A DNA stretch of 64,000 nt from Primulina eburnea (taxonomy: Eukaryota; Streptophyta; Magnoliopsida; Lamiales; Gesneriaceae). The notes below the pieces were generated by a model. The model was not told the DNA's origin. It did no database searches and was given only the letters and a program-made list of their open reading frames with translations. The stretch lies in contig NC_133105.1 in the NCBI RefSeq assembly GCF_022965805.1, positions 32,431,233-32,495,232 on the forward strand, given 5' to 3'. The position numbers and the translations under genes are program-made. Every line of letters starts with the position of its first letter. Position 1 is the first letter of the stretch. Shown piece by piece: positions 9,411-58,645 of the stretch.

Positions 9411-9520
9411 TGTAAGGCTCGAGATTATTAGTTTGCATTAAAATGATACTCGGAAGATATGGGAATGCATGACATGCACTGAAGGGAGAAAAGACATGAA
9501 AATTAAGAGGTTGCAAGACT

Positions 9521-9779
9521 GCACCCGCGCTCAAAACGGGAGTGCACCCGCGGTCATGCAATTATGGAGTTTAGCAAGAAAATCCGAAGCCATATCGCAC
9601 CCGCGGTGTAACTCAGACCGCACCCGCGGTGCATGGACAGAAAGTTGGCCATTTTATGCGAAGCAAGACCGCACCCACGGTCTTACAGAGACCGCACCCG
9701 CGGTCACTATTTTGTTAAAAATGTTAGGGTTGCCGAGAGCATGGCGCACCCGCACTCCTTGAATCACCGCACCTGCGGT
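9521..9779 (+). repeat. U3 dyad array of P, centre word ACCC, 4 pairs at 23-bp spacing
   Basis: Eight copies of a dyad CGC-ACCC-GCG (longest form ACCGCACCCGCGGT) start at 9521, 9544, 9597, 9620, 9671, 9694, 9746 and 9769 when measured from GCACCC or its variants. Every pair is offset by exactly 23 bp. Pairs recur after 76, 74 and 75 bp. Some copies have single substitutions. Short frames across it are artefacts of the repeats. Confidence 0.9.
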
Positions 9780-10840
9780 CTTGCGTGTAATGTGAAAAAT
9801 AATGACACTTGCCCTTAACCATGCAATATGAGGTGTTGTCAATCTCTTCTTTCTTCATTTCCAGCAGCTGAAGACGAGGGAGAGAGTGGAGAGAAGCTTC
9901 ATTCCTCATGCTTTAAGGTTATGATTTTGTAAGATTTATGTATCCAAATTTAAATCCGATTTTGGTTTTTATTTCCTCTCATCATTAGCTTCACGATGAT
10001 GTAAGTTTCATTCAATTCCTGCATGATTTGAGATATAGGGGTTGGAGAAACTTTAATACGCTCATAGATATGTATTTTTAAGATGATTATGAGTGTATAT
10101 TCGAAACCGGGACGAAGAATTGATATCAAACTCAATTGTTATGATTTTCAGTATATTTTTGATTGAGCATGTTCAGATTTTAGAACTTGTAAGGTGCTAT
10201 GATGATGATTATGAGTTGAGATTGATGAATATCTGATATATGTTAAGAGTTGATCATGATATGTTGAGAATGGATTGATTAGTATCGAGAAACTACGTCG
10301 TTATGCCGTCAATTGTTACCAAGATTGAATATGGATTACATATGAGTTGCTTGGAGTTGTGTATTTATAGAATGCATCTCTACATTGCCATTTCAGATTT
10401 ATCATACCTCACTTCGACATCGAAACCTCGACATCGATAAAGGTTTAGCAACAAGAAAGGTATAAGCCATGTTTGTTTGGGATGCCACAACTCAAATAAG
10501 ATATTATTTGAGTTTCCCAACCAAATCACATACTAGAATTATTGTATATATGGTAACATGTTTATGAATTGATTATAGAGTTATATTCAAATCTTGTTAC
10601 TAGATTATTCTCAGACCGAAGTCTAGGAATAAGACGTACAGTCACCCCGAGTGGGAGGGTAGGTGACAGCCATTGACGTCTTATTCACACCGGGATCCCT
10701 AGAGTTCTAGTCGAGTCGAGTCGAGTCTAGACATGGTTTGATTCGCATTGCATGTGCATATTATGTCATTCATAATAGCATGTTTCATGTTTAGATTGAT
10801 TATATGCATGTATACATGTTTATACTGGGATTTGTTCTCA

Positions 10841-10887
10841 CCGGAGTTTCCGGCTGTTGTTATGTCTGTATGTATGCATAACAACAG
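10841..10887 (+). promoter_or_regulatory. conserved LTR hairpin
   Basis: CCGGAGTTTCCGG (small inverted repeat) is followed by an 11-bp perfect stem, CTGTTGTTATG at 10854-10864 with CATAACAACAG at 10877-10887, and a 12-nt loop. The same hairpin recurs in the related LTRs of this window, including 17759-17793, 18550-18583 and 62836-62869 (minus). Its position in the LTR suggests an element of the transcript leader or 3' end. The function is unknown. Confidence 0.6.
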
Positions 10888-11177
10888 GTGGGGCAGGATC
10901 TGGGTCACGCAGAGGATGAGAGATGGACATAGCGTGGTGATCTCGGGCATAGCAGAAGAACTAGTAGTTGTACCTTTGATATGTACTGTATTTTATTACT
11001 AGTTGTTGAGAATGGATGGAACAAGACATATTGTACCTTATGTTTGTAATTTAAATAAAGACTTTATTCTTGTTTATACAACATTAGAATAAATGTTGAA
11101 AAGCAAAAATTTAACCCACTTTTTATATTAACGATCCATTAAATCCCAAAGAAAGAATTAGAGCCCGGGTCCCCACA

Positions 11178-12862
11178 AAAATGCCACAAGATTTCGGCCA
11201 AGTGAGAGAAAATTGGGAGAGTGAATGACTTGTCTAGGTTGTGGGGAAAGTGAAAAAGTAGTCTTGCATGTCATGCATTATTTTAATCAAAAGTAATTCA
11301 CACCCCTTCACCTCCCAAGCATGCAAACCCTAGTGGGCTTGTAACCTTTACAAGGCCCAAGGAATTTTTAATTGTCTCAAACATATTTGAGCCCAATTAG
11401 ACTTTACTTGATTTTACTCAAGCCCACTAGTTAAATAATTATTTCCAATTGGGCTCTACAAGGCCCAATGTTATTTAATTAATCCAACACTTGAATTAAT
11501 TTAAATATTTGTACTCTACTAGGTCCACTAGTGTTTAATTAATTCAACACTTGAATTAATTTAATTTAGTCCATAATAATGTTTATGAAAATCACAATTT
11601 TCAAATACATTATTCACTTGACCAAATTTTAATTTAGGAACACTTCCATAAATTAAAATTTATATTTCTCTCATAGAAGTCATACTTCTATTTTTCTTTA
11701 CGCTTATGAACTCATTTATAAGCCGTTCAACACATTGAACTATTTTACTTCTCATCGGGATTTAGAAAGCAAGTACTTGTGTGGCCCTCAATGGTTCATT
11801 GATACAACTAGCCGTGGGTTCACATCTCCATGTGATTCGGACTAAACATGTCCTTATTCGAGCATACCCCAATTGCTCCATTCTTACTTATCAACTCCTT
11901 GATAATAAGAACGTCAGAACTCAATTCTGATAGTACCCAGCCAATCATGTTAAACGCCTAGCAGCATCCCTTACATGATTCCCTAGGTATCAAATGATAG
12001 TGCCTGCAAGAACCATTCAATTATGGTTAGCGTACAGTACGGTCCCTTCAACTCATATATCCCGACCGATTCGACAACTATTGGTTTATCGAGAGTTGTC
12101 AATGAATCGATACTATGTGTCATGTTGTAGTTGCATCGATGGTGTAATCTATGAAACCCCTTTCATAATTACCACCATACTCTGATCAGAGATTTCAACC
12201 TACACATACATGAGAACACATAGGATATCCATACCCGAAGGTAAGCGGTGAATCCCCGACTACAATGCATCGACTCCTATATGTTTCGACAGAACACCCA
12301 ACCTTGCCACCTGATGACCTCATGAGAGTCGGTAAACAAGTCAAAAGTGTAATTCTAGCACACAGAGTCTCAATGTTGTCCCGGGTCATAAGGACTAATG
12401 GTGTACAACCATAAACCAGGACTTTTCCACTCGATAAGTGAGAACCACTTGGAAAGTCCTTTTATGGAGGGTTGTTCAGTGCACTCTCTACAAGGAGCAC
12501 CTATCTGCATGTTCGGACATCACAATGTCCCCTACCAATGAAACATGGCACTCACATCGCAGATACTAGTCTCTAACTCGAGGGGCCTATATCCTTCTTA
12601 ATGGCGGCTGAATCGACTAGGAACCGTTTAGAATATACAGTATTACAAATATGAGTTTCATGATACTCATCATATGAGCATCTCATATTCTTTCTACTAT
12701 TTGTATATTCAAGGGCTTTATCTATGCAACTAGCATGGATATACAGATAAAGAAATGCCAAAACGATAAATTCAAATATTATTAAAATAAAGACTGTTTA
12801 TACATAGAGTTTAATCATGAACCCTCGGCCAACACTTGGCTCGACGGGCACCTACTCTAACA
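11178..12862 (-). mobile_element. LTR of uncertain (possibly Ty1/copia) family, cut on its left by P
   Basis: On the minus strand this begins at 12862 with TGTTAGAGTAGGTGCC, which I recall as the start of a widespread plant LTR. No gag or pol is seen. The left side ends abruptly at the outer end of P's LTR, which fits P having inserted into it, with the rest of this LTR lying left of the window. The short frames in it carry no recognisable domain. The family is not certain. Confidence 0.5.
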
Positions 12863-13356
12863 TTAACAATAAATAAATTTATTGTCTATGATTTATTATG
12901 TTGCTTTATATTAGTAATCATATCAAATTCGTTTGTTTGTTTTGATATTGCAGGTGATAATGTATTTATTACAAACTTCACGTTGTTATGATATAATCTC
13001 TCGTATATTGTCAACATAGTCACTACATCATTATCTAAAGGCTTCTTAAATATTGTTTTATTATAATATTTACAGACATATTTACATTTTCGTTGGTAAA
13101 TTAACATTGAAGTTTATTATTATTTCACATGAGATGAAATTGCGGCTTCGGAATAATTTTATTTTTATGATCAAAACCTATATCATGTACGGTAAAAAAT
13201 TTCAGTTCAACGGATTTATTTAAGCTTTGGAATCCGTTGCCTTTGATGATTCAAGTACAAAATATTTCGGTGTCATATTGTTGTAATATCATGAATGTTT
13301 AATATATTAGCTCAATATATTCATGACACACGCAATGCGTGTGCCTCGGTGGCTAG
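12863..13356 (+). mobile_element. Helitron 3' end (fragment)
   Basis: The 3' end has the Helitron hallmark: a perfect 7-bp stem CACACGC (13327-13333) with GCGTGTG (13337-13343), a 3-nt loop, then nine bases and CTAG (13353-13356) followed by T. The AT-rich 460 bp before it is assigned to the Helitron only by position. No 5' TC end and no Rep/helicase frame are seen. Confidence 0.6.
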
Positions 13357-13383
13357 TATTTTAATTATTACATGGATTTCTAG
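13357..13383 (+). mobile_element. left stub of plus-strand LTR K
   Basis: These bases plus those from 19074 form one sequence once solo LTR C is removed. The TCTAG at 13379-13383 is the left copy of C's target duplication. K's own start is not visible, because the Helitron end abuts it. Confidence 0.55.
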
Positions 13384-16165
13384 TGAAACGTCCACTACTC
13401 GTTTTTCTTAAAAAATACTAGAATTATTTTTCTTTTCAAATTCATTCGGCCGAAATACTACGCATTTAAAATATGAATATTGGCTCTATTTAAAAACAAA
13501 CCAACCAACAATTATTTGAAAATCTAAAAGAAAGTAATTCAAAGCATAAAGTCGTAAAATTCAATCAACCTAAACTGACATTATTTCAAAAATAAAATTA
13601 ACTCTAACATTCTCTCAAAACCCTCTTAGAAGCATCATAATCATAAAATCTTTAAGTAATCATAAATCATAAACTTATTTTATTTGCAAAAAACTAGCGA
13701 TGGTCATCGGGTTGTGTGCACCTTCAGTCCAGCAAGATCAACCCTCAAGCCCTCCATTAACATCAATCTCATGCTCACCTACATCGATCACACCTAGTGA
13801 ATCTATTGACTCAGCAAACCTTAATCATGATAACAATTAATACACATACATTGACAAGCAACAATGAAAATACTTGTAAGAAAATAGCTTTTCATGAACA
13901 TAAACTTTAACATTTCCCTTTCCACATATCATATCATATATCCTTTCATCATATACGTATACGTTTCCATTTTTATTGAATTCAGATCCTCAATTGCGAC
14001 TTTCGTATTAGCTAAAGGTCGATGGATCCATCTACATAATACCACGGTATCGGACAGTGGGGACATCAGCGACACACTCACCCATCAAATGAGCCTTAGC
14101 CTTACATATCATCGTATCATCGTATTAGTCACAATCAATTCATCTCCTTCAAATTTTCATATTTCCATCATTTATAAAAATTTCATGCACGTATAAATCA
14201 TTTTTCTTTTAAAGCAATCATGCAACACGTCTTTTAGCTTTCAAGTTTCATCATAAAAGTCTATAGAAATTTAAAATAATAATTTTAACATTTATTACAG
14301 CATTCAGGGATATGTCAGGACGTCTAACATTTTTCAGGTGTAAAATGACCGTTTTTCTCCTAAAACCCTAACGTTCCATATTTATCCTTAGTCCTTGAAA
14401 CGACAATAAAAATATTTCCAAACTTAACATATTATCTTAAAATACACCCGTATATATTTCTTAGATGTAAACTTAAGCTTCTCTACAAATTTCCAATTCA
14501 TTTTTCAATTTAGACGTACATCCCGGTTTTGACTTGTATTGACTCGAAACTTAACCAAACATTATCAAACTTGAACCATAGTTTAATAACACCTAACTAT
14601 ACCATATCACACCCAATTAATGACTATTAAGACCTTCGAACAAGCCTATATCAGATACTGAATTTTTTTGTCCCTATATTGATCGAACCCTAAACCATGC
14701 CATGCTCGATTCTTTCGTATCTAGACCTTAACCGATAGGACCGGAACATGACCAACCCTCCTAGGACCTAGAACTAACCTTTTAGGATCTCTCTGGGCCA
14801 TCCCCTAAGAACCATGCACGCTAGTCCCTTTCCTACGCTCGCCCCACGATCGCACGACCATAGAGTGCGGCGTCGGCCTTTTACCCCTGAACCAGGTGAG
14901 ACTCCTCCCTTCTAGTACCACCTCGCAACCTTCCTACACCTTCTGGACGCCGCCCCTACCTTTCACGCACCCTGCACCCTCAAATTTCCAAAAGCCAAAA
15001 CCCTATTGTTCTTAAAACCCAAAATTTTCGTTCAAGCCATCAACCCTACATGTGCAGCCCTTATATATGCATATATGGACCCTTAAACATGTGGAAAAAC
15101 ATCCATTCAAGTTCTCCTACAATGGAAGCCCCTTTGTGAATTATTAAGAAGAGTTTTAATAAAAGAAAACTCTACTTTTATGCATGTAAACCCATAAAAA
15201 CGAAAATAAAAGTGCTGCATCATATTCCTCATGCAAACATAATTAAATATACATAATATGGTGTAAAATATGTTTGAAGGAAGATTAAGGCGTGTCTTTG
15301 CGTATTTTACGAACGAAAACAATTTGGAGATGCGAGGAACGTTGGCGGAGAGGCGATCATTGCTGAATTTTCCTTCAAAAATCGTGAGTTCCCCTTCAAA
15401 GTTATTGTGTGGTGTGTGCACTTGCTGAAGACAGAGTCCTAGTATTATTTAGAGGGGTGGGACGAGAGTTGTGGGGTTTTGGGAAAGGTTTTTTGCATTA
15501 TATTTGATATAAAATTATGTCTTGAAATTATGCTATTGTCAGAATTGAATAGGATTCATATATGATGTTTTTGACATGTTAGACATCGTAGAATCGAAGT
15601 AAGATTGTAAAACAAATCGATTATGGAATTGTTATGATTTTTCAGAATATATCGGTTGATATTGGACAGATTTGGATTATGGGTTGATTACTGATGGTAT
15701 CGGATATGAGTTATGATTTGTAATTGATGTCTATTGATGTGGTATTGACAGGTATACTGAGATTGTGCCGTTACGCCGTGATTTGAATTAAATCTAGATT
15801 AATCAGATTCAGTGTTGAATTGAGAATGAAATATTGATATTATGATTCTCGATATGTCGTTTCAGATTTACAGAGACAGTCTTGAGTTCAGAACGGTTAT
15901 TGCTTCAGACCGAGACTACAAACAAAAGGTATAAGTCAATGTGGTATTGGGAGATCGACTCAAGTAGGATACACTTGGGTTTCCCTAAATCACATATTGT
16001 TATTATATGCATTGATTTGATTATTATTGTAATGCCCAAGAATTTGATTACCATAATCTGAGATGATTTATTGATTATGAATGGATGTGAGTATAGTTGG
16101 ACCGCTCCGAGACCAAATTGGTTAAAACATATGAGTTATGTGATTTGCGGGCAGAACCTGTGGCA

Positions 16166-16338
16166 CCCGAGCGGTAGAATATTACCGCCCGAGCGCCAAT
16201 GTGTGATAAGTAAAGGCTCGGACAGAAAGTATGGCGCCCGAGCGGTAGAATATTACCGCCCGAGCGCCAGTGGATAACAATTGTAAATCACGGACAGAGG
16301 GTTCCGCGCTCGAGCGGTAAAGATTGACCGCCCCAGCG
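16166..16338 (+). repeat. U3 dyad array of A, centre word CCGA, 3 pairs at 22-bp spacing
   Basis: Six copies of CGC-CCGA-GCG start (at CCCGAGCG or its variant) at 16166, 16188, 16237, 16259, 16309 and 16331. Each pair is offset by exactly 22 bp, and pairs recur after 71 and 72 bp. The first copy has CAC for CGC, and the last two have TCGA and CCCA centres. Arms within a pair mirror each other (GGCGCC...GGTA then TACC...GGCGCC). Confidence 0.9.
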
Positions 16339-17120
16339 CCGCCTGAAAGTGGTGAAAAGAAGACACGTTTCTTAGACATGAAACGTGGGATATATATATA
16401 TATATATGTCATTCTTCAGAAATGAACAAAGGAAAAGAATTGAGAAAAGGGCCGAGGAAGGTTGTGAAAAATCCTTACGCCTTTTGTGAGAAATCCATCC
16501 GTCCGATTTTGAATCCGACTGCGGTACTGAGTTCCTATCAACGTAGGCTACAACTGGACGTAAGTTTTGCTACGTTTTGATATGTTCTGAAATTATGGTA
16601 TGGTCAGAATCTAATATGATTCATATATGATGTTCTTGGTATGTTAGACATTGTATAATTGGAACTGGATTGAGGAACAGATACCATATGAAATTGTTAT
16701 AATTTCAAAAGTTGAGTTGATTGAGAATTGATATCAGAATTGAGTTTTTATTGATTATGAGATGTTGGAATTGATATCTGACTGATATGATTGTGCTGGA
16801 TATATTGAAATTATAACGTTATGTTGTTGAAACAGAATTTGATTAAATTCTGATTATATCCAGTATTGATTGAGTGATGTATTGATACCGTACCCTCGAT
16901 ATCGTTATTGTCAGACTGAGTATTGACAGGCTTGGGGTTCGAGACTTCGACAGAGTCAGAATATCAGAATGAAAGGTATAAATTAATGTGGAGTTGGGAT
17001 TGCACAACTCGAGTGAGGTTTGACTCGAGTCTCCCTAAATCACATACTTTCATTAATTGCATTGATATTTGCAATTGATGAGACTTATGATTGTAGTCTA
17101 TTGATTTATAGTCACTGCAT

Positions 17121-17400
17121 GTAATGACTGCTGATTCGCTAGTCATCGATTGATTTGCTTAGATATTGAATGCATGTATTGATTTCTGAGTCGTTGAGTC
17201 ATGGGCTGACTCGCCTAGTCACTGACCGATTCGTCTAAACTTAAGCTGATTCGCTTAATTACCGGCTGATTCGTCTGGTTATTGACTGATTCGTCTAAAC
17301 TTAAGCTGATTCGCTTAATTACAGGCTGATTCGTCTGGTTATCGGCTGATTCGCCTAATTCTTGACTGATTCGTCAATTCTGCGGCTGATTCGCCCAGAC
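17121..17400 (+). repeat. 20-bp minisatellite with 60-bp higher-order unit in LTR A
   Basis: Degenerate 20-bp units of the type GGCTGATTCGTCTGGTTAT repeat about a dozen times. Bases 17221-17280 and 17281-17340 are near-identical 60-bp blocks of three units each. The invariant core is CTGATTCG or a one-base variant. I did not see the array in the other LTRs of the window. Confidence 0.85.
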
Positions 17401-17758
17401 ACTGGATATATGAATTATATCGATGCCGTTTAGGGATTGATTCATTACTATCGACTGAGATTAGGTATATTTATCATTATCCAGACATCGGGATCCCTAG
17501 GTTAGAGTTAAGTCGAGTCTGAGACGACGCGTCAGTGGAGTCGAGTCTGAGACGATGCGTCGGTTGAGTTGAGTCTAATACGACATGTTGATTTACATTG
17601 TTTATATCATTCATGTTTATTGAATGCTTGATATTGAGTTATGTTCTGATTTGAGACATGTTATGAATAATTCTTATATGCTTTCGTATATGCTTTTATA
17701 TGATTGCATGTATACATTGTTTATACTGGGATATTTATATCTCACCGAAATTATCTGG

Positions 17759-17793
17759 CTGTTGTCTTGTTTTGTATGTGTGCATGACAACAG
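17759..17793 (+). promoter_or_regulatory. conserved LTR hairpin (copy in A)
   Basis: CTGTTGTC at 17759-17766 pairs with GACAACAG at 17786-17793. It is equivalent to the hairpin at 10854-10887, where the eighth base pair is T-A instead of C-G. Confidence 0.6.
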
Positions 17794-18549
17794 GTGGGGC
17801 TGGACCAGGGTCAAGAAGAGGATGAGAGAAGATTAGATAGCGTGGAGATCCGTGCTTCGAAGCAACATAGGATTCAGTACTGATATGTAGTTGAACCTAG
17901 TTGAATTCTTGTAGATAACACAAGATTTGTATATTCATGTTTAATATGTAATTGAGTAAATTACATTACGTTTCCGCTTTGTATTTTAAAAAAAATTTAG
18001 ACCCTGTTTTATAATTGATTAATCAGTCCCCAATGATGATTAAGAACATGATTAGGGTCCGGGTCCCCACAATTATATGCTGTTCTATTGATTTGTAGGG
18101 AGCATGTATTAGATGAGTATTGATTGAGTAATCTTGTGACACAAGTGTCTGATAGTGGCGGGATCGCCACGAGCACATTGCACGACGTCCCAAGATAGTG
18201 TATTGGCGATAGTGCCAAAGTATGTCACCGGATGATTGGCTATCGATGTGGATAGAATTGGAGTTTCTTCTATTACTGGTGATCGATACCATATCGATGT
18301 GGATAGAATCAGAGTTTCTTCTATTACTGGTGATCGATATGGAATGCCAACGTATGGAAACCAGGATCCCTAGACTAGGATTGAGTCTAGTCTAAGTCGT
18401 GGAGTCACGAGCATTGTCGACAGTTTATATTGATTATATTTCAGCTTTTGATATATATTGCTGTTATTTGTCCATGCTTTTATGTTTATCATATGATTGC
18501 ATGTTTCGTTGATTTATACTAGGATTATATTCTCACCGGAATGATCCGG

Positions 18550-19262: not shown

Positions 19263-19267
19263 CTAGG

Positions 19268-21802: not shown

Positions 21803-21803
21803 A

Positions 21804-25099: not shown

Positions 25100-26105
25100 C
25101 GGTGATAAGTGTAGATTATGGCTCTGCCTCCTCTATGTGCATCACATAGGCCCTGCCATTTGTGGGGCCCTTGTTCCTAGGGCAGTCCCCTTCTTTTTGA
25201 CCTCCTCTTTTCATATGAAGCATTTGAAGGTTCCCCACATACATTTGTCATAGTGTAATTTGTTGCACGGCTGTCCTTCCTCCAGCTTTGGAGCCCCTGG
25301 TGCCTATGGTGGCCGCTGCTGTGTGGGCATCTTAAGCTGTCCCTGGGGATTATGCTGCCCTTGATGCCTTGTTGGCCCTGTAAACTGCTTCTTTTGTGGC
25401 TGTGACCTAGACTGGATCTGCACTGCAGCTCCATATCAATGTCCCTCAGAGCCTGCTCCACCTGAAAAACACAATCGGTGACCTCATCATAGCTCTCCGG
25501 TCTCATCAACATAACATCCCCACGCAATGTGGGTCTGAGGCCCTCCATGAAATGCCTCAACTTCTGAGCGGCATACCTCGCAATAAGGGGCACAAAGAGA
25601 CAGTCCCTGTCGAATTTCCTGATGAACTCTGCCACAGATGAGCCCCTGTCGGAGACTCATGAACTCCCTCGTCAGGCGTCCCCTGACATCTGTTGGAAAA
25701 TATTTGTTGTAGAAGATATCCTTGAACTGGCTCCAAGTAAGAGTAGCCAAGTCCACCCCATGAGCAGCTCCCTCCAACCATAGAGATGTGTCGTCCCTCA
25801 GCATGTAAATGGCGCACCTCACCCGGTCGCCATCCCTCATCTACAAATATTGAGTGTAGCTCCAATTACCGTATCCAACCCTCCGCTACAAAAGGGTCAG
25901 TAGTACCTCCGAACTCCTTCGGGTTGAGTCGTCTAAACTGCTCATAGATGTCTGTCTAGTTCTGGAGCCTGTTGTGCTGCTCCATAAACCTAGCAATAGC
26001 CTCAAGGACTGGGGACGCTGCGTCTCCTAGAGGTGATGGGAGGCCTCTACCACCTTCGGAAGTATCATCCTTCCTGTCAGTGCTAGGGGTGCGGCTGGGA
26101 GGCAT
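25100..26105 (-). pseudogene. gag of J
   Basis: ATG at 26105-26103 begins MPPSRTPSTDRKDD. An in-frame stop follows after RFMEQHNRLQN, and two frameshifts lie near 25845 and 25640. Domain landmarks: PKEFGGTTDPFVAEGWI, CAIYMLRDDTSLWLEGA, TWSQFKDIFYNKYFP, EFIRKFDRDCLFVPLIA and KLRHFMEGLRP. A degenerate zinc knuckle (CNKLHYDKC) and GDCPRNKGPTNGRAYVM close it. Gag forms the particle that packages element RNA. This copy is inactive. Confidence 0.85.
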
Positions 26106-26107
26106 AG

Positions 26108-28253
26108 TGTAAGGCCCGAGATTTTTATCCTGTTAATCTGAAATGATTGGGTGATAATTAATGTAATTATAGATACAAAGGATTAGTCGGAAAAGATGGA
26201 GGAAAACACGAAATATGTGCGAGGCCAGAACACCTCGCGCATATGCGCGACAAGGAGCCGCGCATATGCGCGACAGTGGCAGTAGACCTCGCGCATATGC
26301 GCGAGATGTGTGCGTTCATATGCGTGAGCTGTGCGATGAGCCAAATTCATCTCTAGAGAACCTCGCGCATATGCGCGGAAGATGGGCGCGCATATGCGCG
26401 AGCTGCCGAGAAGGGTACCTGCCGAGACAGTAGGTCTCGCGCATATGCGCGGGACTAGGACACCAATATGCACGAGTCATGCAGAATGAAAAATTGACGC
26501 TTGTTCTCCACCGTGCAACTGATATATACATATATATATATACATATACATATTATCCTTATATAATTCAGAAGAATGAAATCGAGAAAGCTCCAAATCC
26601 TTATGCCTTTTGTAGTGAAGATTTGTGAATTGTGAACGATCCGTCCGTTAGATTTTTAATCGGACTTCAGTACTGAGTTTCTATCGGAGAGAGCTTCAAC
26701 TGGACATAATTTTCTTACGTTTTGGATATGATTTAAAATTATGGTAATGTCAGAATCAGATGTGATTAATATATGTTGTTCTTGCGATATCAGACATCGT
26801 ATAATCGAAAACTACTCGAAGAACAGATACAGTATGAAATTATTATGAATTTTCAGAATCGATTTGATTGTGATTAGATCGAATTGATATCAGATTTGTG
26901 TTGTTATCAATTATGAGGTGTTGAGATTGATATCTGATTGATATTGTATTGCTCGGTATATTGATATTATTCAGATTTGGATCAGATGAGTTGTTGATTC
27001 ATATATACTGATATTGTACTGCTGGTATTGCGAGATTGTACATATTTGATATTTTGATCTGTTATTGTTAAGATTATGGGTTGTACTGATATTGATTATG
27101 AGCCTGTGTTATTATATGTGTGATGTTGAAATTGACGGGGTTATTGAGATTATATTTTTATGCCGTCGAAACATCAGTAGATTGATATGAATAAGATTCG
27201 TTATTGATTGAGATTGTATCGTCGTATCGTTGACATTGATCATATTATGTCTTGATTTGTGTATTGATCAGAACATGTCTTGAATTGAGTTGTATATTGA
27301 CATTGTGCTTATTCGATATGGTCATTTCAGATTTGATATGGGCAGATTTGAATTCGAAACTTTGATTTCGTCAGACCGAGAAGAAAAAAGTATAAGTCAA
27401 TGTGGTACCGGGAGAACGACTCGAGTATGATATACTTGGAGTTTCCCTAAATCACATACTTATTGTTATTGTGTGCATTGATTTGAATTGATATGCTTGT
27501 TCTATTGATTTATAGAAAGCATGTATTAGACGAGTGATCTTGTGACATAGGTGCCAGATAGTGATGGAATCAGTCACTGGCACATTGCAAATTGTCACAG
27601 GATAGTGATTTGGCGAAAGTGCCAAAGTCTGTGACGGATAGGTCAAGACACCGGATGTTTGGTTATATCAATTTTGAATAGACTCGGAGTTTCTTCTATT
27701 ACTGATATTCGATATGGAATACCAACGTCTGGAAACCGGATCCCTAGATTAGGATTGAGTCTAGTCTGAGACGTGGAGTCACGAGTCTGATTAACGATTT
27801 TATATTGGTTATGTTTCAGATTTTGATACATGTTATTGATATCTGTTACATGATTTTACATTGTTAATATGATTGCATGTTTCGTTGATTTATACTGGGA
27901 TGTATTTCTCACCGGAGTTATCCGGATGTTGTCGTGTTTGTATGTGTGCATGGCAACAGGTGGGACAGGTTCATGGTCGAGGAGATAAAGAGAGATCGTG
28001 ATTAGAGTGGAGATTACGGACTTTGATTAGAGATAGGGTTGAACACTTGATATGTAGTCGTTAAACCTTATTTTGGATTGATTGTATATAGTATAAGAAT
28101 TGTACTTTGCTTTCGATGTATATAATCGAATGAATTCTATTACGTTCCGCATTTGATATTTGTATATAAAAAAATATTTAGACCCTGATTATTGTAATTG
28201 ATTAAATTTTCTCAATGATGATTAAGAACTTGATTAGCGTCCAGGTCCCCACA
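26108..28253 (+). mobile_element. solo LTR L inserted at the gag start of J, duplication CATAG
   Basis: 2,146 bp, starting TGTAAGGCCCGAG and ending CCAGGTCCCCACA, flanked by CATAG at 26103-26107 and 28254-28258. The duplicated five bases contain the complement of J's gag ATG, so the start codon exists twice, once on each side. The LTR carries an ATAT-type dyad array, a TA-rich TATA-like stretch near 26521-26545, the block ATCCGTCCGTTAGATTTT seen in sister LTRs, and the hairpin region near 27910-27960. Confidence 0.95.
26235..26474 (+). repeat. U3 dyad array of L, centre word ATAT, 4 pairs at 23-bp spacing
   Basis: Copies of CTCGCGCATATGCGCGAG or parts of it have CATATG (or a one-base variant) starting at 26240, 26263, 26294, 26317, 26368, 26391, 26442 and 26465. 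Each pair is offset by exactly 23 bp. Pair starts are 54, 74 and 74 bp apart. Spacers hold a degenerate GAGACAGTAGGT-like word related to the spacer of array A. Peptide frames here (AHMR or AYAR repeats) are artefacts. Confidence 0.92.
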
Positions 28254-42516: not shown

Positions 42517-42575
42517 AGTTTTGGTCCCCAAAATCTAGCATCCACAACACATATACATAAAGTGGTTTAAAACAT

Positions 42576-44642: not shown

Positions 44643-46419
44643 TCAGGGGTTTGTGCTGGTCAGGATTAGGTCTGGCCGAGGTCTAGGGATGGCTGGGGTG
44701 TGATGGGCTTGGTTGCTGCTGTTGTGGTAGGACCTAGTAGGCTACAATTCCAGAAGCGCGTGGATGTGAAGAACACGCAGCTGCTAGTTTCCTGAACAAG
44801 TGGCTCGCTGTGTGGGTTCCAGGGTCTGGGCTAGTCTGGGTAGGGTCTGGGCGTGGTCCAGGGATGGTTAGGGTCAGGTGGGCTCGGTGGTGGCTCAGCT
44901 GGAGGAGTCCTAGGGTCACTAGGAGTTCTTATGCGTGAGTTCATTCATGTGCATATTGGGTAGCTTACTTCCAGGAGAGTTTGGGTGAGCTATGGGCTGG
45001 TTCTTTGGGTTGGGCTTGGTTAGGAGGGTGCCTAGGTGGGCTGGCTAGAGTCTGGCTCGAGGTGGCTCGGGCGTGACTCGAGTAAATAAGGAGTTGGCTC
45101 GGTGTGTCCTCGAGTAAAAATTGAATCCATGGATCCACGGGTGTGGCTCATGATTTGGAAGGGTAGAATAAATATTAAAAACGTTATGTTTAAAATTTGG
45201 GATCAAAATAATGAGTTTTGGATTTATCCGAGATATTATCGCCGCACGAAACGTTAATTAAAGAATTAATTGAAAAGCCTAGTTTTATGCTTCATAAAAT
45301 TATGAAAAATTATATTTAAACTTAAATAATTATTTATAATAATCTCATGTCATTAAAAGTGAGAAAAAGATAAATTCAAGAATTTTTACGTCCAGGGGCA
45401 AAACAGTAATTTTACACTTAGGAAAATACGTAAACGCTTGGCAGCGTCACGAAGGATCATAATGCATGTTAAATGATATTATATGATTTAAAATTATTAT
45501 TTTGATGATAGTACGTATTTTATGATTTCTTGTAAATATGTGCAATTTTTACTGTTTAAAATGCTATTTTTGAAAAGCTGTCTTATTATATGATTTTTTA
45601 AGAAAGGAAAAATATTTTGAGGGATGTGGATTGACTGCGACAAAAGATATGATTTATGATATATGATTTTATGTGAATTTCGTGAGGGGAAAAGGCCCAG
45701 AGGGAGCCCATTTACGGGAGAAGGCCCCAGAGGGAGCCCATTTATGGGAGAAGGCCCAGAGGGAACCTGTCTGTGGGCGAAAACCCCCGAGGGAGCCCCG
45801 AAGATTGTATTTCCATGGTGGAGCCTAGTGCACAACCCCATGGGCCATGTGGAGCTAAGACTGCAGTCGATCAAAGGATAAAAGCTAATAACTTTCAAGG
45901 ATCAAACTTCACCCAAAATGATATATGATTGAAAGCTTATGATAAAATGATTTTTATGATATATGATTTATGATGATGATTAAAGCTATTTTTAAAATGA
46001 TTTATTTATGCTCAAAGCATAATTTAAATGATTTGTAAATGATTTATTTATGCTTAAAGTTATTTTAAAATTATTTTAAAATTTATGAATTAATTATGCT
46101 TAAATGATTTTAAATGGTTTATTTATGTACAAAAGATATTTTAAATAAAATATGATTTTAATGCATGTGATTGTATATGTATTATTTTATATCCATGTTT
46201 AGAACGTGTTGAGTCTTTAGACTCACTAGGTTTGTATGATGCATGATTTGATGATTTATGAGAGGCAGTGACGATTGAGTGGATCGAGTGCAGCAGTACA
46301 TACCCGAGGGCCTTTATGTTTCCGCACTAACTAGATAGATTAAGGATTTAAAGATTATGTTAAATTATTTTATTAGAATTTATGATTTAAGATTAGAAAA
46401 AAAAATAGAGGTCGTTTCA
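44643..46419 (+). mobile_element. family-C LTR piece (plus strand) in place of E protease and RT
   Basis: It ends AGAGGTCGTTTCA at 46419, the family-C end, and its G-rich part mirrors the complement of 40,740-41,200. The LTR start is missing. On its left the E sequence stops at the RT/RNase H junction and on its right resumes at the gag zinc knuckle, so E's protease and RT (over 1 kb) are absent. It must be an insertion accompanied by deletion, or two events. Confidence 0.75.
45685..45805 (+). repeat. minisatellite of about 30 bp
   Basis: About four units built on AGGCCCAGAGGGAGCCCATT with an intervening ACGGGAGA or TGGGAGA. A spurious repetitive peptide frame (GEGPRGSPF) covers it. Confidence 0.8.
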
Positions 46420-47527: not shown

Positions 47528-49619
47528 TGGGAGGTCCCATGATCCTCATTAGTTTTTAATTATCAAGCAACCAGGATTTATAAGCGTAAAGAGTGGAAAC
47601 TAGTAAAAAATTTCCATTTTGGGCCTACAGAAATTTTAACATTATACTCGAGGAAACGAGTAAAAATATTCTTGAGTTTCGGCAAAACAACACAACCAAA
47701 CATTTATACTCGAAAATAGAGTCCAATAAACCAAATAGAATACCAATCACATGCAGAGCCGACCAGGCTTGATCACACCAAATAAATTCCAACACTCAAG
47801 AATATAACCATACAACTACACGAAACATCTCCTCGGAAAATGAATCAATATATAGTATATATATCTGGGGACTCCCAACTCAAACGGACTCATAGGGCTC
47901 CACTGGCAGACGCTTCACCAGCTGCATCAGAACCACCTGTAAAACATGCTCTGGAATCACATAACAAACCACAGCAGCCCTGAGAGACAAGGTTCGAACC
48001 CCAGTACGAAGATCAAATAAATTACAACATATATAACTGATATGTAATGAAATCAAGGCAATACAATACAATGCATTTAGGGTACCAAATAATCTTGGAT
48101 ATCAAACTGGATCCAAAGAAACGATAACAACAACTGTGGCCACATGTGCTAGGGATGTGACGTGTCAAATATGTCCTCAGTCCTCCACTTTTTAAGAAAT
48201 GAGGAATAATTTTAAAAATGCATCCAAATAGCACAAAGAGCACATAAACACATAATTCACATAGAATCAATCATTTCACATCAATTAAATTACACTTCGT
48301 TCTAGACGTATAAGGAATCGATCAACCAATACCTTAACCTTCAAATTATATTACCACAATAATTTATGAACTCCTCGGTGCTTCTTGGTTACTAAAACAT
48401 GTGGCAAATAATTTATTTCCATCAAATAAATATTCAGCTCCTAACCAAATACATGTTACTAATTCCAGCTTGTACCTAAGCTAGGCTATAAGGTCATAAC
48501 TCAACCAAAACGTAACAAAAATACATTTATCATACGTGGGTGGAATCCTAACTCAGACTCCCATATTTCATCAGAAGACATCAAGAACATAAATTCAAGT
48601 ATCTCGGTTTGACACTGAAAAACGCCCAAAACCAGAAACCATGAGAAATAAGTTCTGTGACAAATTCAGGTTCGAAACGTATGAGTATAAAATTCATATC
48701 TAACTCATTATTGACTCAAATCAATATCCACCAATTGGAAATGAAAGAAACTCACCTATCTAAGATTTCCTAGAAGAAATTTTTTCATAATCTCAGAAGA
48801 TTAATCCCATAATTAACAAGAAGACGATGCTACTCACGCAATCGCGGGCAGAAGTCTGTAACTAATCAGTTTCAGTAAAACAAGCATAACTATTTCAATT
48901 CATAACAGAATTTAACGATTCAAGTCTCATTACGAAGAAAAAACATAGTTCTACAACTTTATTTGAACTAAAAGTGCACAAAGCGAATGCACCAAGGTCA
49001 TAACCTTGAAATACATTAGCCATTCAACAAAGCTCAAACACAGAGTTTGATTTTGATACATTTTGGTAAAACAATCATATCAAATCTATTTCTAATTGGA
49101 ATTCCATTTGGACAGCAGTTACAAAAAGCTAATACATATATATACAAGTTTTATTTGAACTACTAGTCGAAAATCTTAGTGCACAACACAGAAACACAAA
49201 AATCAGAAGCCAAAAGGTACAACTAGAAGCAGAACCCAACATCTACTTCCATGGACAAAATTAAAACAAAGTCCTAAAGATTACCTTCAATCAACTTCTA
49301 CAAATTGAAATAGAGTTGGAAATGAGATCTTCAAGTCTTAAAGTAACAAAGAATCAAGAAGAAGGCTGGAAATGGAGCATAATCTCGCAAGCAGCAGGTA
49401 GGAAGAAATGGAACAGCTTAAACGAGCTAGGTTTCTACTTCTCGGACTGAAATCGAACAAAGGACCACCTGGACTAGCTTGTGCGGTCTCTAGCAACCTA
49501 CTTCTGGTCGGATTTGAGAAGCAACAACAGCTGAGAAGGCGATACAGAAGAGAATGAAATGGATGCAAGGAGAAGAAGCGACAAGCTTGAGGAGAAAAAT
49601 GAATTGGGCTTGGGGAAAA
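47528..49619 (-). mobile_element. 5' LTR of E, outer end missing
   Basis: It pairs with the 3' LTR pieces. It stops at 49619 inside GGCTTGGGGAAAA, where the inverted fragment begins, about 240 bp short of the LTR start expected from that fragment. Short frames here have no known domain. Confidence 0.8.
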
Positions 49620-49930: not shown

Positions 49931-50003
49931 TTTCTTCTCCATCGTGAGTAGCTTATTGTCACCCCCCTTGCTGATAGGAAGCGGATTTCCAGAGCTCACC
50001 CAA
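49622..50003 (+). mobile_element. inverted fragment of the E-type LTR
   Basis: TGTGAGAACCCGAATT onward matches the complement of 42193-42498, here in plus orientation, head-to-head with the 5' LTR of E. It is cut at 50003 by the LTR of F. Confidence 0.8.
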
Positions 50004-52027
50004 TGTGGGGACCCGGACGCTAATCATCTTCTTAATCATCTTTGGGATTTAATTATCAATTAAGATAAACAGGGTCTAAAAATTTTTTCTTTTTAAAATA
50101 TAAGTGCGGAATGTAATGGAATTTAACTAATATACATCTCAGTATAAAAGTACAATAATGTACAACAATTATTCAAACTAGTCTAAGGTTCAACTACTAA
50201 ATTTCAAGTATTAAACCAAGTCTACATCCAAGTCCGGAATCACCACTCGAATCTCGATCTCTCATCATCCTCTTGACCCTGATCCTGCCCCACCTGTTGT
50301 CATGCACACATACAAACAAGACTACAGCCGGATAACTCCGGTGAGAATGAATCCCAGTATAAACAATGTATACATGCAATTAACTGACTTAACATAAAAG
50401 CATGAATTATATCTTGTCACATGTATCATAATCGAACAACATGTATCAATATTAAACTGTAAATAAAACATAAATCGTAATCTACGAAACATAAATCAAT
50501 ACGGATCTGTAAATCAAATTCTAGTCTCAATATCTAAGACTCGACTCATCTCTCATTCTAATCTAGGGATCCCGGTGAATAAGAACGTAACAAGTCTCCC
50601 ACCTACTACTACCAGTCGCGGTGGCGGTACGTTCTTATTTCTGGACTTTGGTCTAACTGTATCGAATAATCTACAATAAGAACAATATCTTTATCTTAAG
50701 CATATCGATACACCAAACGTCCAGTGCCTTGGCGTATCTACCAAAACTAAGCCTAGTCTTACAAAGTGCAATGGGTCAGTGACTATACTGTCAAGATCTA
50801 ACCCCTCTGTCAGTGACTCTTACTCAATAGCTCTATGCTTTCTTCTTCTAACTCAATAGAATAAACATAATCATTAAAACACAAAGGTATAAAAACAATA
50901 CCATAAAAGTATGTGGTTTAGGGAAACTTGAGTAAAATCTAACTCAAGTCGATCTCCCAGTTAACATCGATTTATACCTTTCTCTTCTCGGTTTGATGAA
51001 GACGAAGTCTTGTATTCCAATTTGTCCATATCAAATCTGACAAAGACGATCGCATAAATACAATATCAGTATATAACTCAGTTCAAAACCTGTTTTGATC
51101 AATACTCAAATCAAACACAATCTGATTAATGTCAATGACATAACAATACAATCCCAATCAGTACTGAATCTGATCAATATCAATCAACTGATGTTTCGAC
51201 GGCATAACAATAAAGTCTCAATAATCCCGTCAATTTAACATTACAGATATAATACCATAATTCATAATCAATACCAGTACAGCCCATACTCTGAATAATA
51301 ACACAACTCTGATATAGAATCTCAACTAAATCAACTCAAAAAATCATAACAAATACATAAACAGTCTATTCTTTAATCTGACTTCAGTTATGCAATGCCT
51401 ACTGTAGCAGAAACACCATATCTGATTCATATTCAATTCTGACAATATCACAAATTCAAATCATGTCTAAACATTACAAAACTTACGTCCAGTTGTAGCC
51501 TGTGTTGATAGAACACAATACTGAAGTCGGATCTAAAATCGGACGGACGGATTTCTCGTAAATCAATTTCTGATCTTCGAAGAAACTTATCTCCCCAACT
51601 CTCGATTTCCTTCTGAATTCTGAAGATAATTCGCATGCTTATATATATATATATATAACATACCATTCATGCAGCAAGGCAAGTGGCGTCGTGCATGTTC
51701 TGTACGTTGCGCGCATATGCAGGACCCTGTTCGCGCATATGCGCCGGTAGTTCGACCAGCATCTACGTCGCGCATATGCGCCGATCATTCTGCCCATCTC
51801 GCGCATGTGCGCCATCTATGTCGCGCATATGCGCGAAAGGTTCTTCCTTCCTCGCGCATGTGCGCCCAACACGTCGCGCATGTGAGCGAGGACTTCTCCT
51901 TACATCTCATGTCTAATCTTCTTTCGGCTCTCTCGGTCTGATCCATTCCGTTTATAATCATCTCGATTAATAAATAAATCATTTCAGATCAATCTCAGAT
52001 TACAGTAATAAAATCTCGGGCCTTACA
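50004..52027 (-). mobile_element. 3' LTR of F
   Basis: 2,024 bp. Starts on the minus strand TGTAAGGCCCGAGATTTT (52027) and ends GTCCGGGTCCCCACA (50004). Contains the hairpin region 50294-50327, the TATA-like run near 51644-51657 and the dyad array 51690-51886. Polypurine tract AGAGGGGGAGAAA adjoins at 52028-52040. Confidence 0.92.
51694..51886 (-). repeat. U3 dyad array of F (3' LTR), centre word ATAT, 22-bp spacing
   Basis: CATATG or CATGTG cores start at 51714/51736, 51773, 51804/51826 and 51857/51879. The three clear pairs are each offset by exactly 22 bp. Flanks are CGCG on most copies. A further weak CATGTT lies at 51694. Confidence 0.88.
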
Positions 52028-52040
52028 TTTCTCCCCCTCT

Positions 52041-54613: not shown

Positions 54614-55528
54614 CTAACTTCTTCGGGAACTTCTCTGTGGACAAACTCTAGCAAAATGCCCCGGCTGTCTAATGATATTGCAACTACCAGTCACTCCCTG
54701 GCATTGCTCTGTGGGATGTCTCCCTCCACAAGTTCTACAATATACTTCAGTATAACTCGGGCTGGCAACACTGGAGCTAGATGAACCACTCGGTTCACTT
54801 CCCAACTTCTTAAACTGTTTCTTCCGAATTTTCAGCTGTGCTTTCTTTTCACCACTGATGCTGCCAATCTCAACTCTGGAAGGCAGTTGCTGTGAACTCG
54901 GTGCTGGAAGATCATATGATACTCCCTTTTGTCCCATCAAAACTGTTTCTGCTCTTTTGGCTCTGTTCAATGTATCAGCAAAATTAATCGGTCGCTTCAC
55001 ATTCACCAATGTACGTATCTCCGGATTTAATTCCCGAATGAACTGATCATATATAGCTTCATCATTTCTAGCCACATGAGGGACAAAACGTAGCAAGGTA
55101 AAGAACTGAGCCAAATACTCATCAATACTCATGTGACCCTGTCTCAAAGTTGAAAAATTTGCACTTTTGTCTTGTCTGTATGATACGGGGAAAAATCTTT
55201 GATATAATTCAACCTTAAAAATTTTCCACGTAATTAGTGAACTGCGCTGTTCTAGGGCTTCTTTGGTTATTAGCCACCAACTTCTTGCAGCTTCCTGTAA
55301 CTGATTCCCAATCAACTTAACTCTACAATCATCTGTGAAATCAAGAAATTCGAATAGCATTTCCATATCTTCAAGCCAATTCTCACAATCTACCGGCGTC
55401 TCAGTACCCTGCAGAATCGGCGGTTGAAATGACTGAAACCTCTTCCACTGTATTTCTATCGGAGTTTCTGATATACCTATCTGTTCAGTCGAAGTGCTAC
55501 CCCTTTCCGGAATTCTTCGAGGCGGTAT
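54614..55528 (-). pseudogene. gag of F, nearly intact, start codon changed to ATA
   Basis: The frame is open for 304 codons from 55528. It begins with ATA CCG CCT CGA AGA, where Tekay-type gags begin M-P-P-R-R, so the ATG at 55528-55526 appears lost by one base. The next in-frame ATG is at 55366. Landmarks: FQPPILQGTETPVDCENWLE, QLQEAARSWWLITKEAL, FKVELYQRFFPVSYRQDK and YLAQFFTLLRFVPHVARND. Zinc knuckles follow: CRTCGGRHPTEQC, and CNIIRQPGHFARVC, where the second Cys is lost. Gag here could still be translated from 55366. Confidence 0.85.
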
Positions 55529-55812
55529 ATCTGATTATCAATAGATTAGTACACAATCTATACAATCTGTCTCAGCCCTCCTCTGATCATATACCTCTGA
55601 TCCAGAATCGGTTCTGATTCAGTCTTGATAAATACATGCTGTAATCAACTCAGATAGCAATACAACATGTAATAAGGAAAGCAATAACTCATGCTAGCAC
55701 ACACAATGTAGATCAACATTATAATAAATCTCATGCTAGCAATCACATGCAAGGAAAGAAAAACTCAATCTACCACGCTCATTCTCTTCTATATCAGTCT
55801 AAAGGATCTATC

Positions 55813-55824
55813 GCTCTGATACCA
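55813..55824 (-). other. tRNA-Met primer binding site of F
   Basis: The minus strand reads TGGTATCAGAGC, a perfect initiator-tRNA-Met site, five bases inside the LTR edge at 55830. Confidence 0.92.
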
Positions 55825-55829
55825 TCTGT

Positions 55830-57468
55830 TGTGGGGACACGGACGCTAATCATCTTCTTAATCATCTTTGGGATTTAATTATCAATTAAGATAAACAGGG
55901 TCTAAAAATTTTTTCTTTTTAAAATATAAGTGCGGAACGTAATGGAATTTAACTAATATACATCTCAGTATAAAAGTACAATAATGTACAACAATTATTC
56001 AAACTACTCTAAGGTTCAACTACTAAATTTCAAGTATTAAACCAAGTCTACATCCAAGTCCGGAATCAATACTCTAATCTCGATCTCTCATCATCCTCTT
56101 GACCCTGATCATGCCCTACCTGTTGTCATGCACACATATAAACAAGACAACAACCGGATAACTCCTGTTAGAATGAATACCAGTATAAACAATGTATACA
56201 TGCAATTAACTGAATTAACATAAAAGCATGAATTATATCTTGTCACATGTATCATAATCGAACAACATGTATCAATATTAATCTGTAAATAAAACATGAA
56301 GCGTAATCTACGAAACATAAATCAATACGGATCTGTAAATCAAATTCTAGTCTCAATATCTAAGACTCGACTCATCTCTCATTCTAATCTAGGGATCCCG
56401 GTGAATAAGAACGTAACAAGTCTCCCACCTACTACTACCAGTCGCGGTGGCGGTACGTTCTTATTTCTGGACTTTGGTCTAGCTGTATCGAATAATCTAC
56501 AATAAGAACAATATCTGTATCTTAAGCATATCGATACACCAAACGTCCAGTGCCTTGGCGTATCTACCAAGACTAAGCCTAGTCTTACAATGTGCAATGG
56601 GTCAGTGACTATACTGTCAAGATCTAACCCCTCTGTCAGTGACTCTTACTCAATAGCTCTCTGCTTTCTACTTCTAACTCAATAGAATAAACATAATCAT
56701 TAAAACACAAAGGTATAAAAACAATACCATAAAAGTATGTGGTTTAGGGAAACTTGAGTAAAATCTAACTCAAGTCGATCTCCCAGTTAACATCGATTTA
56801 TACCTTTCTCTTCTCGGTTTGATGAAGACGAAGTCTTGTATTCCAATATGTCCATATCAAATCTGACAATGATGATCGCATAAATACAATATCAGTATAT
56901 AACTCAGTTCAAAACCTGTTCTGATCAATACTCAAATCAAACACAATCTGATTAATGTCAATGACATAACAATACAATCCCAATCAATACTGAATCTGAT
57001 CAATATCAATCAACTGATATTTCGACAGCATAACAATACAGTCTCAATAATCCCGTCAATTTAACATCACAGATATAATACCAGAATCAAAATCTATACC
57101 AGTACAGCTCACACTCTGAATAATAACACAACTCTGATATAGAATCTCAACTAAATCAACTCCAAAAATCATAAGAAATACATAAACAGTCTATTCTTTA
57201 ATCTGACTTCAGTTATGCAATGCCTACTGTAGCAGAAACACCATATCTGATTCATATTCAATTCTGACAATATCATAAATTCAAATCATGTCTAAACATA
57301 ACAAAACTTACGTCCAGTTGTAGCCTGTGTTGATAGAAACACAGTACTGAAGTCGGATCTAAAATCGGACGGACGGATTTCTCGTAAATCAATTTCTGAT
57401 CTTCGAAGAAACTTATCTCCCCAACTCTCGATTTCCTTCTGAATTCTGAAGATAATTCGCATGCTTAT

Positions 57469-57499
<31 letters not shown>

Positions 57500-57646
57500 C
57501 ATACCATTCATGCAGCAAGGCAAGTGGCGTCGTGCATGTTCTGCACGTTGCGCGCATATGCGCGACCCTGTTCGCGCATATGCGCCGATAGTTCGACCAG
57601 CATCTTCTGTTGGCTCGCGTATATGCGCCATCTACGTCGCGCATAT
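55830..57646 (-). mobile_element. 5' LTR of F, cut by G
   Basis: Nearly identical to 50004-52027 until 57646, where G's LTR interrupts within the dyad array. The dyad pairs at 57555/57577 and 57620/57642 keep the 22-bp offset. The hairpin partner at 56146-56153 has lost its last pair. Confidence 0.9.
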
Positions 57647-58645
57647 TGTAATGCCCAAGATTGTAAGCTGATTAAATGAGATTTTGAAATATTGCATGTG
57701 AAGCAGACCGCACCCGCGCTGAGAAAAAGACTGCACCCGCGGTCATTAAATGTGAATTTGTGAAAGTGAGGCCGAGGGGACACCGCACCCGTGGTGCTAG
57801 AAGGACCGCACCCGCGGTGAATGTCCAGTAAGGTACCTATTTTTGACATTGTGATACCTCACCCGCGGTAAGAACAAGACCGCACCTGTGGTGACAAGAC
57901 CGCACCCGCGGTACAAATGAGACCGCACCCGCGGTCGTCGAGTTTAGGAAAATAAAAGGACTGCCGTGGGCACAGCACACCCGCGGTGCAAGAGGACCGC
58001 ACCCGCGGTGTTGCATGCGAGAAATCCACCTTTGAAGTTTTCGATGACACATGGCAGGGTATATATATATTTTGCACATGAGTCACCTTTCTTTCATTTT
58101 TACAGAAGAGAAACGGGAGAAACTCCAATTCCTTATGTGTTAAGGTTATGATTTTGAAAGAATTACACATCCAAACTTAATTCCGAGACGAGATTCTTGT
58201 TCCTTGCGCTAAGGGCTACAAGAGGATGTAAGTTTCTCTAAATTCCAGCATGGTTTGAAGTTTAAGTGTTGGAGAAATTCTGATATGATTATGATTATGT
58301 GTTCCTATGATTATTGTGAACGTTTATTCACAACTGGATCAATTTATGGATACTGTATGAGATGAGTTCGATTTTCCAGCACATATGATGGGAAATGGTA
58401 CAGATTTCAGAGTATATATTTTTGTTGTGATGGAATTATGAGTTGATTGTGATTGATAATGTTGTTATTAAGATATCGGTTACGCCGTTGAATTATACCG
58501 AGATTGAATATGAATTGTATAAGACTCGATTTGGAGTTGTATTGTGACATGGTACTCCTCTACATTGTCATTTCAGATTGATATTGACAGGTTCGATTTC
58601 GAGACTTTGACTACGACAGATTGTGCGACGAAAGGTATAATTCAC
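57647..58645 (+). mobile_element. 5' part of LTR G
   Basis: Starts TGTAATGCCCAAGATTG like LTR A. CATAT at 57642-57646 should be its target duplication. It carries an ACCC-type dyad array, a TATA run near 58064-58074 and the AAACGGGAGAAACTCC leader region. It stops at about 58645 and runs directly into gag, without LTR end, primer site or leader. Confidence 0.8.
57710..58009 (+). repeat. U3 dyad array of G, centre word ACCC, 5 pairs at 23 or 22 bp
   Basis: GCACCC-type copies start at 57710/57733, 57785/57808, 57859/57882, 57902/57925 and 57977/57999. Four pairs are offset by exactly 23 bp and the last by 22. Pair starts are 75, 74, 43 and 75 bp apart, so one pair sits closer. Same word as the array of P. 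Confidence 0.92.

Follow-up and report, generated by a model that had tools for sequence, protein, structure and literature searches.

The long terminal repeats (LTRs) in a window of 64,000 nucleotides from Primulina eburnea (contig NC_133105.1, positions 32,431,233 to 32,495,232; the whole stretch that was analysed) carry arrays of CG-rich dyads of the form CGC-N4-GCG, arranged in pairs 22 or 23 bp apart. The window was placed in the 812 Mb assembly, and all results refer to this one genome. Comparison of the U3 and R-U5 parts of such LTRs revealed that near-identical R-U5 backbones bear unrelated U3 arrays, and that the history of U3 departs from that of R-U5, which is a modular U3 of the Tnt1 type. 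The four-base centre word of the dyads seems to label an old U3 module whose parts are transferred together. The arrays are probably U3 promoter/enhancer cassettes of several Ty3/gypsy LTR families, which would be read by a paired factor and exchanged as a whole between related families.

The window contains 30 exact dyads as compared to a mean of 1.3 (maximum 4) in 60 first-order Markov simulations, and eight pairs at offsets of 22 or 23 bp as compared to none across the simulated runs; the inverted control GCG-N4-CGC occurs twice. When the arm spacing was varied, counts of 30, 2, 0, 25 and 10 were recorded for N4, N3, N5, N6 and N8, respectively, the N6 and N8 counts being attributed to ATAT dyads, whose CG arms are longer. 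Six arrays, which occupy U3 between the LTR start (TGTAAkG) and the TATA box where one was found, hold 27 of the exact dyads (four in P, five in A, six in L, five and two in the two F arrays and five in G; Table 1), and the other three are at 48837, 50617 and 56443. Genome-wide, where repeat counts are lower bounds, any-centre dyad pairs number at least 45,219 at offset 23 and at least 51,139 at offset 22, against 3,316 and 651, respectively, for the pattern read backwards. The paired arrays described in an earlier note on this DNA are thus real, while its statement that all dyads fit CGC-N4-GCG holds for the 27 exact copies and fails for others with one changed arm base (among others those at 9520, 9543, 9670, 9745, 16164, 51712 and 51877, and further at 57732, 57784, 57858, 57881 and 57976).

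Four classes of centre word were recognised, namely ACCC, YCGR, AYRT and YCYA. Among the matches listed, which are the first places in the genome, offset 23 is mainly occupied by ACCC and ATAT-like words, and offset 22 mainly by YCGR, together with ATAT-like words and CCTA/CCCA. Arrays were present in four of 20 random 10-kb stretches, six arrays in total (YCGR at 22 and ACCC at 23). Labels of the form L0nn denote array rows or LTRs fetched from the genome, most of them from the early part of one contig and found by word-specific patterns. One of 36 array rows (L002 and L003 being one array, and the merged F/G row omitted) contains a dyad from another defined class, a figure that is partly a product of selection as most rows were fetched via a word-specific pattern. 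The random mixture of words named earlier as contrary evidence is therefore not seen in these rows, nor do the pair offsets spread in this genome. The near-constancy of the centre word within an LTR agrees with this count and needs qualification in the window itself, as two of the five exact dyads of F at 51712-51886 read ATGT, and A contains CCGA, TCGA and CCCA. The fourth class is displayed by L044 (from 746 on), where CCTA/TAGG/CCCA words are combined with unchanged arms and an offset of 22. On contig 1 (G000), at about 9131875-9132003 and at 9138371-9138510, ACCC dyads face GGGT dyads at offset 23, with CTGC/GCAG flanks.

The relation of the centre word to LTR history has been elucidated from trees of 22 oriented LTRs, which include both LTRs of a single element (L028), with arrays of guessed orientation excluded; these supersede an earlier tree of 19 LTRs (five changes, shuffled mean 5.8, 41 of 200 shuffles as low). 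On the U3 tree every word class forms a single clade (supports 100/100, 100/99 and 99/99), and two changes, the minimum, suffice. On the R-U5 tree the classes need nine changes against the same minimum of two and a shuffled mean of 10.4 (46 of 200 shuffles as low), and monophyly is rejected for every class by the approximately unbiased (AU) test (YCGR 4.3e-7, AYRT 1.7e-8, ACCC 2.3e-4). With the dyads and three flanking bases masked, the U3 tree again requires two changes in all (shuffled 10.6, 0 of 200 as low), with supports of 100/99 for YCGR and 78/78 for AYRT, ACCC not being one side of a branch. The first 110 bases of U3 alone need four changes (shuffled 10.3, 0 of 200 as low).

The chance level of the overall identity measure is 0.644, and identity was hence compared in bins of 40 columns. 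Between L033 (YCGR) and L041 (AYRT), identity is 28-41% over the stretch from −280 up to TATA, rises to 60-65% as far as +80 and then to 80-100% as far as +560. Similarly, A is 25-55% identical to L043 in U3 as compared to 80-97% downstream (LTR start excepted), and 30-52% identical to L028 in U3 as compared to 70-95% downstream, while L028 and L035 share 85-92% and 77% between +80 and +280 and 40-75% after. The same-word pair L033 and L035 is 63-96% identical in U3 and 27-62% beyond +280; L043 and L, also of one word, display a patchy U3 similarity of 15-97%. In pairs of equal R-U5 identity (0.8-0.9), the mean U3 identity is 0.77 for nine same-word pairs and 0.67 for 19 different-word pairs, a comparison that includes arrays of guessed orientation and has the above chance level. 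These results speak against the concerted turnover proposed in the earlier note, by which one lineage would swap its word at all sites in place, e.g. through gene conversion, while tracking a changing factor. Near-uniform words within arrays would be expected from it, but the word classes coincide with clades of the U3 tree even when the dyads are masked, are scattered on the R-U5 tree, and near-identical R-U5 sequences bear unrelated U3s, so that turnover in place is considered very improbable.

Distances between adjacent dyads are quantised at 22-24, about 31, 41-44 and 48-54 bp. For ACCC at offsets of 16-26, 64 distinct spacers were found among 100 matches listed, of which 47 are at 23, seven at 24, five at 22, three at 19 and one each at 17 and 20; at offsets of 24-54, the 51 distinct adjacent spacers among 100 matches listed fall at 24 (seven), 28-31 (four), 41-44 (four), 47 (one) and 50-54 (35). 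Among 50 ATAT matches listed for offsets of 13-43, 15 are at 22, 20 at 23, eight at 31 and seven at 41-43. Offsets of 32-39 are near-empty genome-wide, with 157 of 24,623 ATAT pairs and 87 of 32,213 ACCC pairs, whereas an even spread would place about a quarter there. The 37-bp step of F at 51771 is one of these 157 ATAT pairs. At the fetched loci, distinct adjacent spacers of 13-56 bp number 153, and 149 of them lie within 22-24, 30-32, 41-44 or 48-54 bp, windows that were drawn after the data were seen.

The offsets of 22 and 23 bp run through the arrays of the window as claimed earlier, except in L, where two of the four pairs depend on degenerate partners (near 26315 and 26463) that fail even the one-mismatch test. 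Pairs, said before to recur usually every 72-76 bp, do so at steps of 71-76 bp in P, in A and through most of G, whereas F and the first part of L have steps of 53-54 bp and G contains a single step of 43 bp. The shared spacer words GGACAGAAAGT (P and A) and GAGACAGTAGGT (L) are present as described. Long inter-pair spacers also bear recurring CAGAAAG/CAGTAGG-like and GCCGA-like words (9635-9645, 16221-16231 and 26423-26434), found by simple patterns, with no control, in 11 of 40 and 19 of 40 long ACCC spacers. A neutral history, in which a few ancestral spacer lengths were propagated by tandem duplication and descent with no selection, would explain the recurrence in units of 71-76 or 53-54 bp and the 53-bp unit that a tandem repeat search reveals in F. 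However, inner spacers vary in sequence yet hold their length; the 47 distinct ACCC spacers at 23 (among the matches listed) have a mean pairwise identity of 0.41 as compared to 0.26 when shuffled, which also answers the earlier concern about a duplication with identical spacers. Moreover, identical distance classes are found in three word classes, and P and G are more alike in their dyads (74/80) than in their spacers (134/238) or R-U5 (404/699), as are L and F (53/62, 133/221 and 432/586, respectively), comparisons in which alignment favours the dyads because these are alike within an array. The dyads of different-word array pairs are 38-60% identical. A neutral origin is thus regarded as decidedly unlikely.

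The link of the arrays to the core promoter was monitored in array rows possessing an LTR start, a TATA box within 150 bp and an R motif, by which 19 of 37 rows could be oriented. The last exact dyad starts 58-67 bp upstream of TATA in 16 of these 19 LTRs; in the window, the distance is 62 bp in both A (TATA start at about 16391) and G. An ACCC dyad followed by GATATATA within the searched range occurs at 1,623 or more places in the genome, against five for controls. The 100 matches listed comprise 61 distinct dyad-to-TATA sequences, 58 of length 65-69 and three of 76, many of which are related and hence not independent. Of these 61, 51 have CATGCA/TGCATG among the 25 bp directly upstream of TATA, 50 have [AG]CGTG no more than 12 bp downstream of the dyad, and 35 have CCAC[CGT]T or CACTTG, as compared to 0.7, 1.1 and 1.4, respectively, expected from letter shuffles. 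Inspection by eye, with no control, of 75 bp in each of 21 LTRs from three classes revealed CATGCA/TGCATG in 18 and ACGTG/CACGT likewise in 18. CATGCA is presumably the RY motif, and ACGTG is taken to be the ABRE/G-box.

CATGCA-type boxes can recruit repressors too. Host silencing would accordingly assign to the CpG palindromes and the CATGCA boxes the binding of a repressor or the attraction of methylation, a change of cassette being then an escape. The spectrum of arm changes is in line with this, as among the 25 dyads in which one arm base has changed, 21 display C-to-T or G-to-A (the other four G-to-T), like the decay of methylated CpG. Purely harmful sites should be lost, yet U3s that are old and diverse keep the pairs at a fixed distance from TATA, and silencing as the role of the arrays appears unlikely.

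The anatomy of the dyads was studied in 92 exact copies from 19 array stretches. The bases flanking the arms are C/G in 40, G/G in 13, T/G in three and C/C in three of 59 ACCC dyads, and G/C in 13 of 13 AYRT dyads. In the 17 YCGR dyads, C/C (nine) and G/G (eight) alternate to form a mirrored pair, GGCGC-YCGR-GCGGT, eight bases, ACCGC-YCGR-GCGCC, the inner part of which has at least 17,275 occurrences in the genome as compared to 0 for the control. The inner spacers of YCGR pairs have an AT fraction of 0.78 and complementary ends in 27 of 28; the respective values are 11 of 19 for ACCC, 7 of 14 and 3 of 11 for AYRT, and AT fractions of 0.52-0.62. The self-complementary arms, and the YCGR pair as an inverted repeat with an AT-rich middle of eight bases, would permit dyads or pairs to form RNA hairpins or DNA cruciforms. 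This is disfavoured, however, by the bases next to the YCGR arms, which are complementary in 0 of 17 dyads, and by the centre words of YCGR pairs, complementary in 4 of 37 as compared to 10.3 expected; nucleic acid structure is therefore a most improbable basis of the arrays. The flank and centre-word anatomy of YCGR pairs is instead read as four protein half-sites and not a fold.

In the cassettes favoured here, mostly two to five pairs of CG-rich dyads at quantised distances are locked, as a rule, about 61 bp upstream of TATA, with ACGTG-like and CATGCA-like boxes between, as the above anatomy shows. The dyads are most likely bound two by two by a putative dimeric host transcription factor or its paralogues, whereby the four half-sites would work jointly on the core promoter. 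Such a factor is plausible in view of the fixed offsets with diverse spacers, the quantised wider spacings and the locked TATA distance, and the earlier suggestion of sites for a dimeric or paired factor may be retained at the level of what the sequence indicates; no match of the dyads to a known factor was obtained. Centre word and offset together mark the U3 lineage. The tree conflict and the mosaics point to a probable exchange of whole cassettes between related families, with a break within about 80 bp after TATA. The simplest route would be intermolecular first-strand transfer while two co-packaged RNAs are being reverse-transcribed, which unites the R-U5 of one RNA with the U3 of the other. 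A further and rather doubtful proposal is that one spacing grammar is kept by otherwise unrelated U3 cassettes and read by paralogous, word-specific, putative paired host factors, whereby reassortment of cassettes would switch the factor in one step; within this proposal, the ACGTG and CATGCA boxes beside TATA would suggest seed- or germline-type promoters. The shared grammar may reflect shared readers.

Several observations weigh against the cassette explanation. Three of the 19 oriented LTRs lack an exact dyad at 58-67 bp, the last one starting 91 bp before TATA in L, 86 bp in F (LTR at 52027) and 110 bp in the second L021 array, though F and L021 possess a one-mismatch dyad at 64 and 58 bp, respectively. 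No TATA was found by the search pattern in P, L002, L004, L007 and L008, and in the above 75-bp stretches CATGCA/TGCATG is absent from A, L001 and L035, and ACGTG/CACGT from L, F and G. The best period of the spacings is 9.5 bp (R 0.74) and not the 10.5 bp of B-DNA; over a wider range, periods of 9.5-10 bp (R 0.66-0.67) again exceed 10.5 bp (0.58), so that strict 10.5-bp phasing was rejected and the spacing is termed quantised only. The ACCC class shows partial clustering on the R-U5 tree (four changes, shuffled mean 7.2), parts of which are unsure owing to the long branches of L022, L034 and G, and the same-word L033 and L035 are also 87-92% alike at +80 to +280.

Pfam matches in the order reverse transcriptase, RNase H and integrase at 6832-9164 give the element of P the Ty3/gypsy pol order. 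Its integrase piece contains H2C2 and SH3_Tf2-1, together with an rve match that is weak and under the rve cut-off, and is 45-65% identical to relatives among the matches listed, the named ones being nearly all plants; a purine-rich stretch likewise precedes P. A chromodomain-like piece near P in another frame matches PF00385 (E 4.9e-5) with 23.6 bits, below the Pfam cut-off of 25.1. With SH3_Tf2-1 after the integrase, the element of P is a probable chromovirus; for the elements of A, L, F and G, the designation given earlier is putative. A gag match lies inside F at 54614-55534, and a minus-strand open reading frame (ORF) of 1,309 codons at 423-4352 has protease, reverse transcriptase, RNase H and H2C2 matches, with no dyad array tied to it. 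Short tandem repeats of 60 bp (17204-17393) and 59 bp (45687-45798) are also present in transposon sequence.

An element-encoded factor for the arrays, like the anti-silencing VANC of VANDAL, would share with VANDAL the logic of short tandem-repeat motifs that vary considerably among related elements (PMC5735166; all papers are cited for the parts covered). Eight of the nine window ORFs of at least 150 amino acids match gag, protease, reverse transcriptase, RNase H or integrase families (E 0.001), and the ninth (25177-25656, minus strand, 159 codons) has no Pfam match and sits outside the LTR; these nine include no candidate for an array-binding protein, intact copies elsewhere not having been searched. 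Cassette exchange would, in addition, break the match between a private protein and its array. VANDAL elements bring their own binding protein (PMC5735166), whereas here none is seen in the window ORFs and whole U3 blocks appear to move, which makes such a factor hardly credible.

The nearest parallels are the repeated-motif (RM) boxes of Sireviruses overall, Tnt1 for the modular U3 and VANDAL for motif change between relatives. RM boxes are likewise palindromic, CG-rich LTR motifs in many copies upstream of a conserved TATA, and related motifs occur in very divergent elements with letters varying by element (PMC2829016); inverted repeats in U3 of Sire elements have also been reported (PMC3601003). 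The arrays share with them the many copies shortly upstream of TATA; the RM core is, however, CGG-CCG in Ty1/copia elements, and neither is found here, where the dyads are CGC-N4-GCG and the P element has the Ty3/gypsy order. In the parts covered, PMC2829016 describes no fixed pair offset, quantised spacing or cassette exchange. U3 is highly variable among subfamilies according to a review (PMC10794571), and group-specific U3 with a conserved rest has been termed modular evolution in the Tnt1 superfamily, Ty1/copia elements of Solanaceae for which the parts covered describe no dyad grammar common to the U3 types (PMC1838419). New LTRs of Onsen combine U3 and R/U5 of different members, mostly with the first template switch in R (PMC5668417), but this concerns one small copia family of Arabidopsis seen in real time, whereas here exchange is deduced from old copies in several families. 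Word searches of open-licence papers found no literature on such arrays in Ty3/gypsy LTRs, and two strict array patterns had no match in viral contigs. The quantised spacing, the TATA lock, the boxes between, and the mirrored YCGR pairs that avoid centre-word complementarity go beyond the earlier note.

The second F LTR is cut within its U3 dyad array at 57646-57647, where the G LTR starts, which is a nested insertion (Table 1).

Table 1. LTRs with dyad arrays and pol pieces in the window. Offsets between successive dyads tolerate one arm mismatch; hits overlapping by 8 bp or 2 bp are excluded.
Feature	Position	Strand	Description	Successive offsets (bp)
P, 3' LTR	9411..9900	+	U3 array 9520-9777, ACCC, offset 23; search pattern finds no TATA	23,53,23,51,23,52,23
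A, LTR start and U3	16028..16480	+	array 16164-16338, YCGR, offset 22	22,49,22,50,22
L, LTR start and U3	26108..26600	+	array 26238 to 26449, ATAT, offset 23	23,31,74,23,51
F, LTR starting at 52027	51560..52027	-	array 51712-51886, ATAT/ATGT, offset 22	22,37,31,22,31,22
F, second LTR	57380..57646	-	array from 57553; TATA 63 bp past last dyad	22,43
G, LTR start and U3	57647..58160	+	array 57709-58007, ACCC, offsets 23, once 22	23,52,23,51,23,20,23,52,22
pol pieces, element of P	6832..9355	+	reverse transcriptase, RNase H, integrase with SH3_Tf2-1, chromodomain-like piece in another frame; broken gene	

If true, these findings would provide a defined and testable cis-grammar for plant Ty3/gypsy promoters, of which this one genome contains about 96,000 dyad pairs, as well as a natural experiment, with differing promoter cassettes on similar R-U5 backbones. 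They would also open the questions of whether host factors decide the expansion of retrotransposon families, and of how frequent promoter exchange is as compared to mutation.

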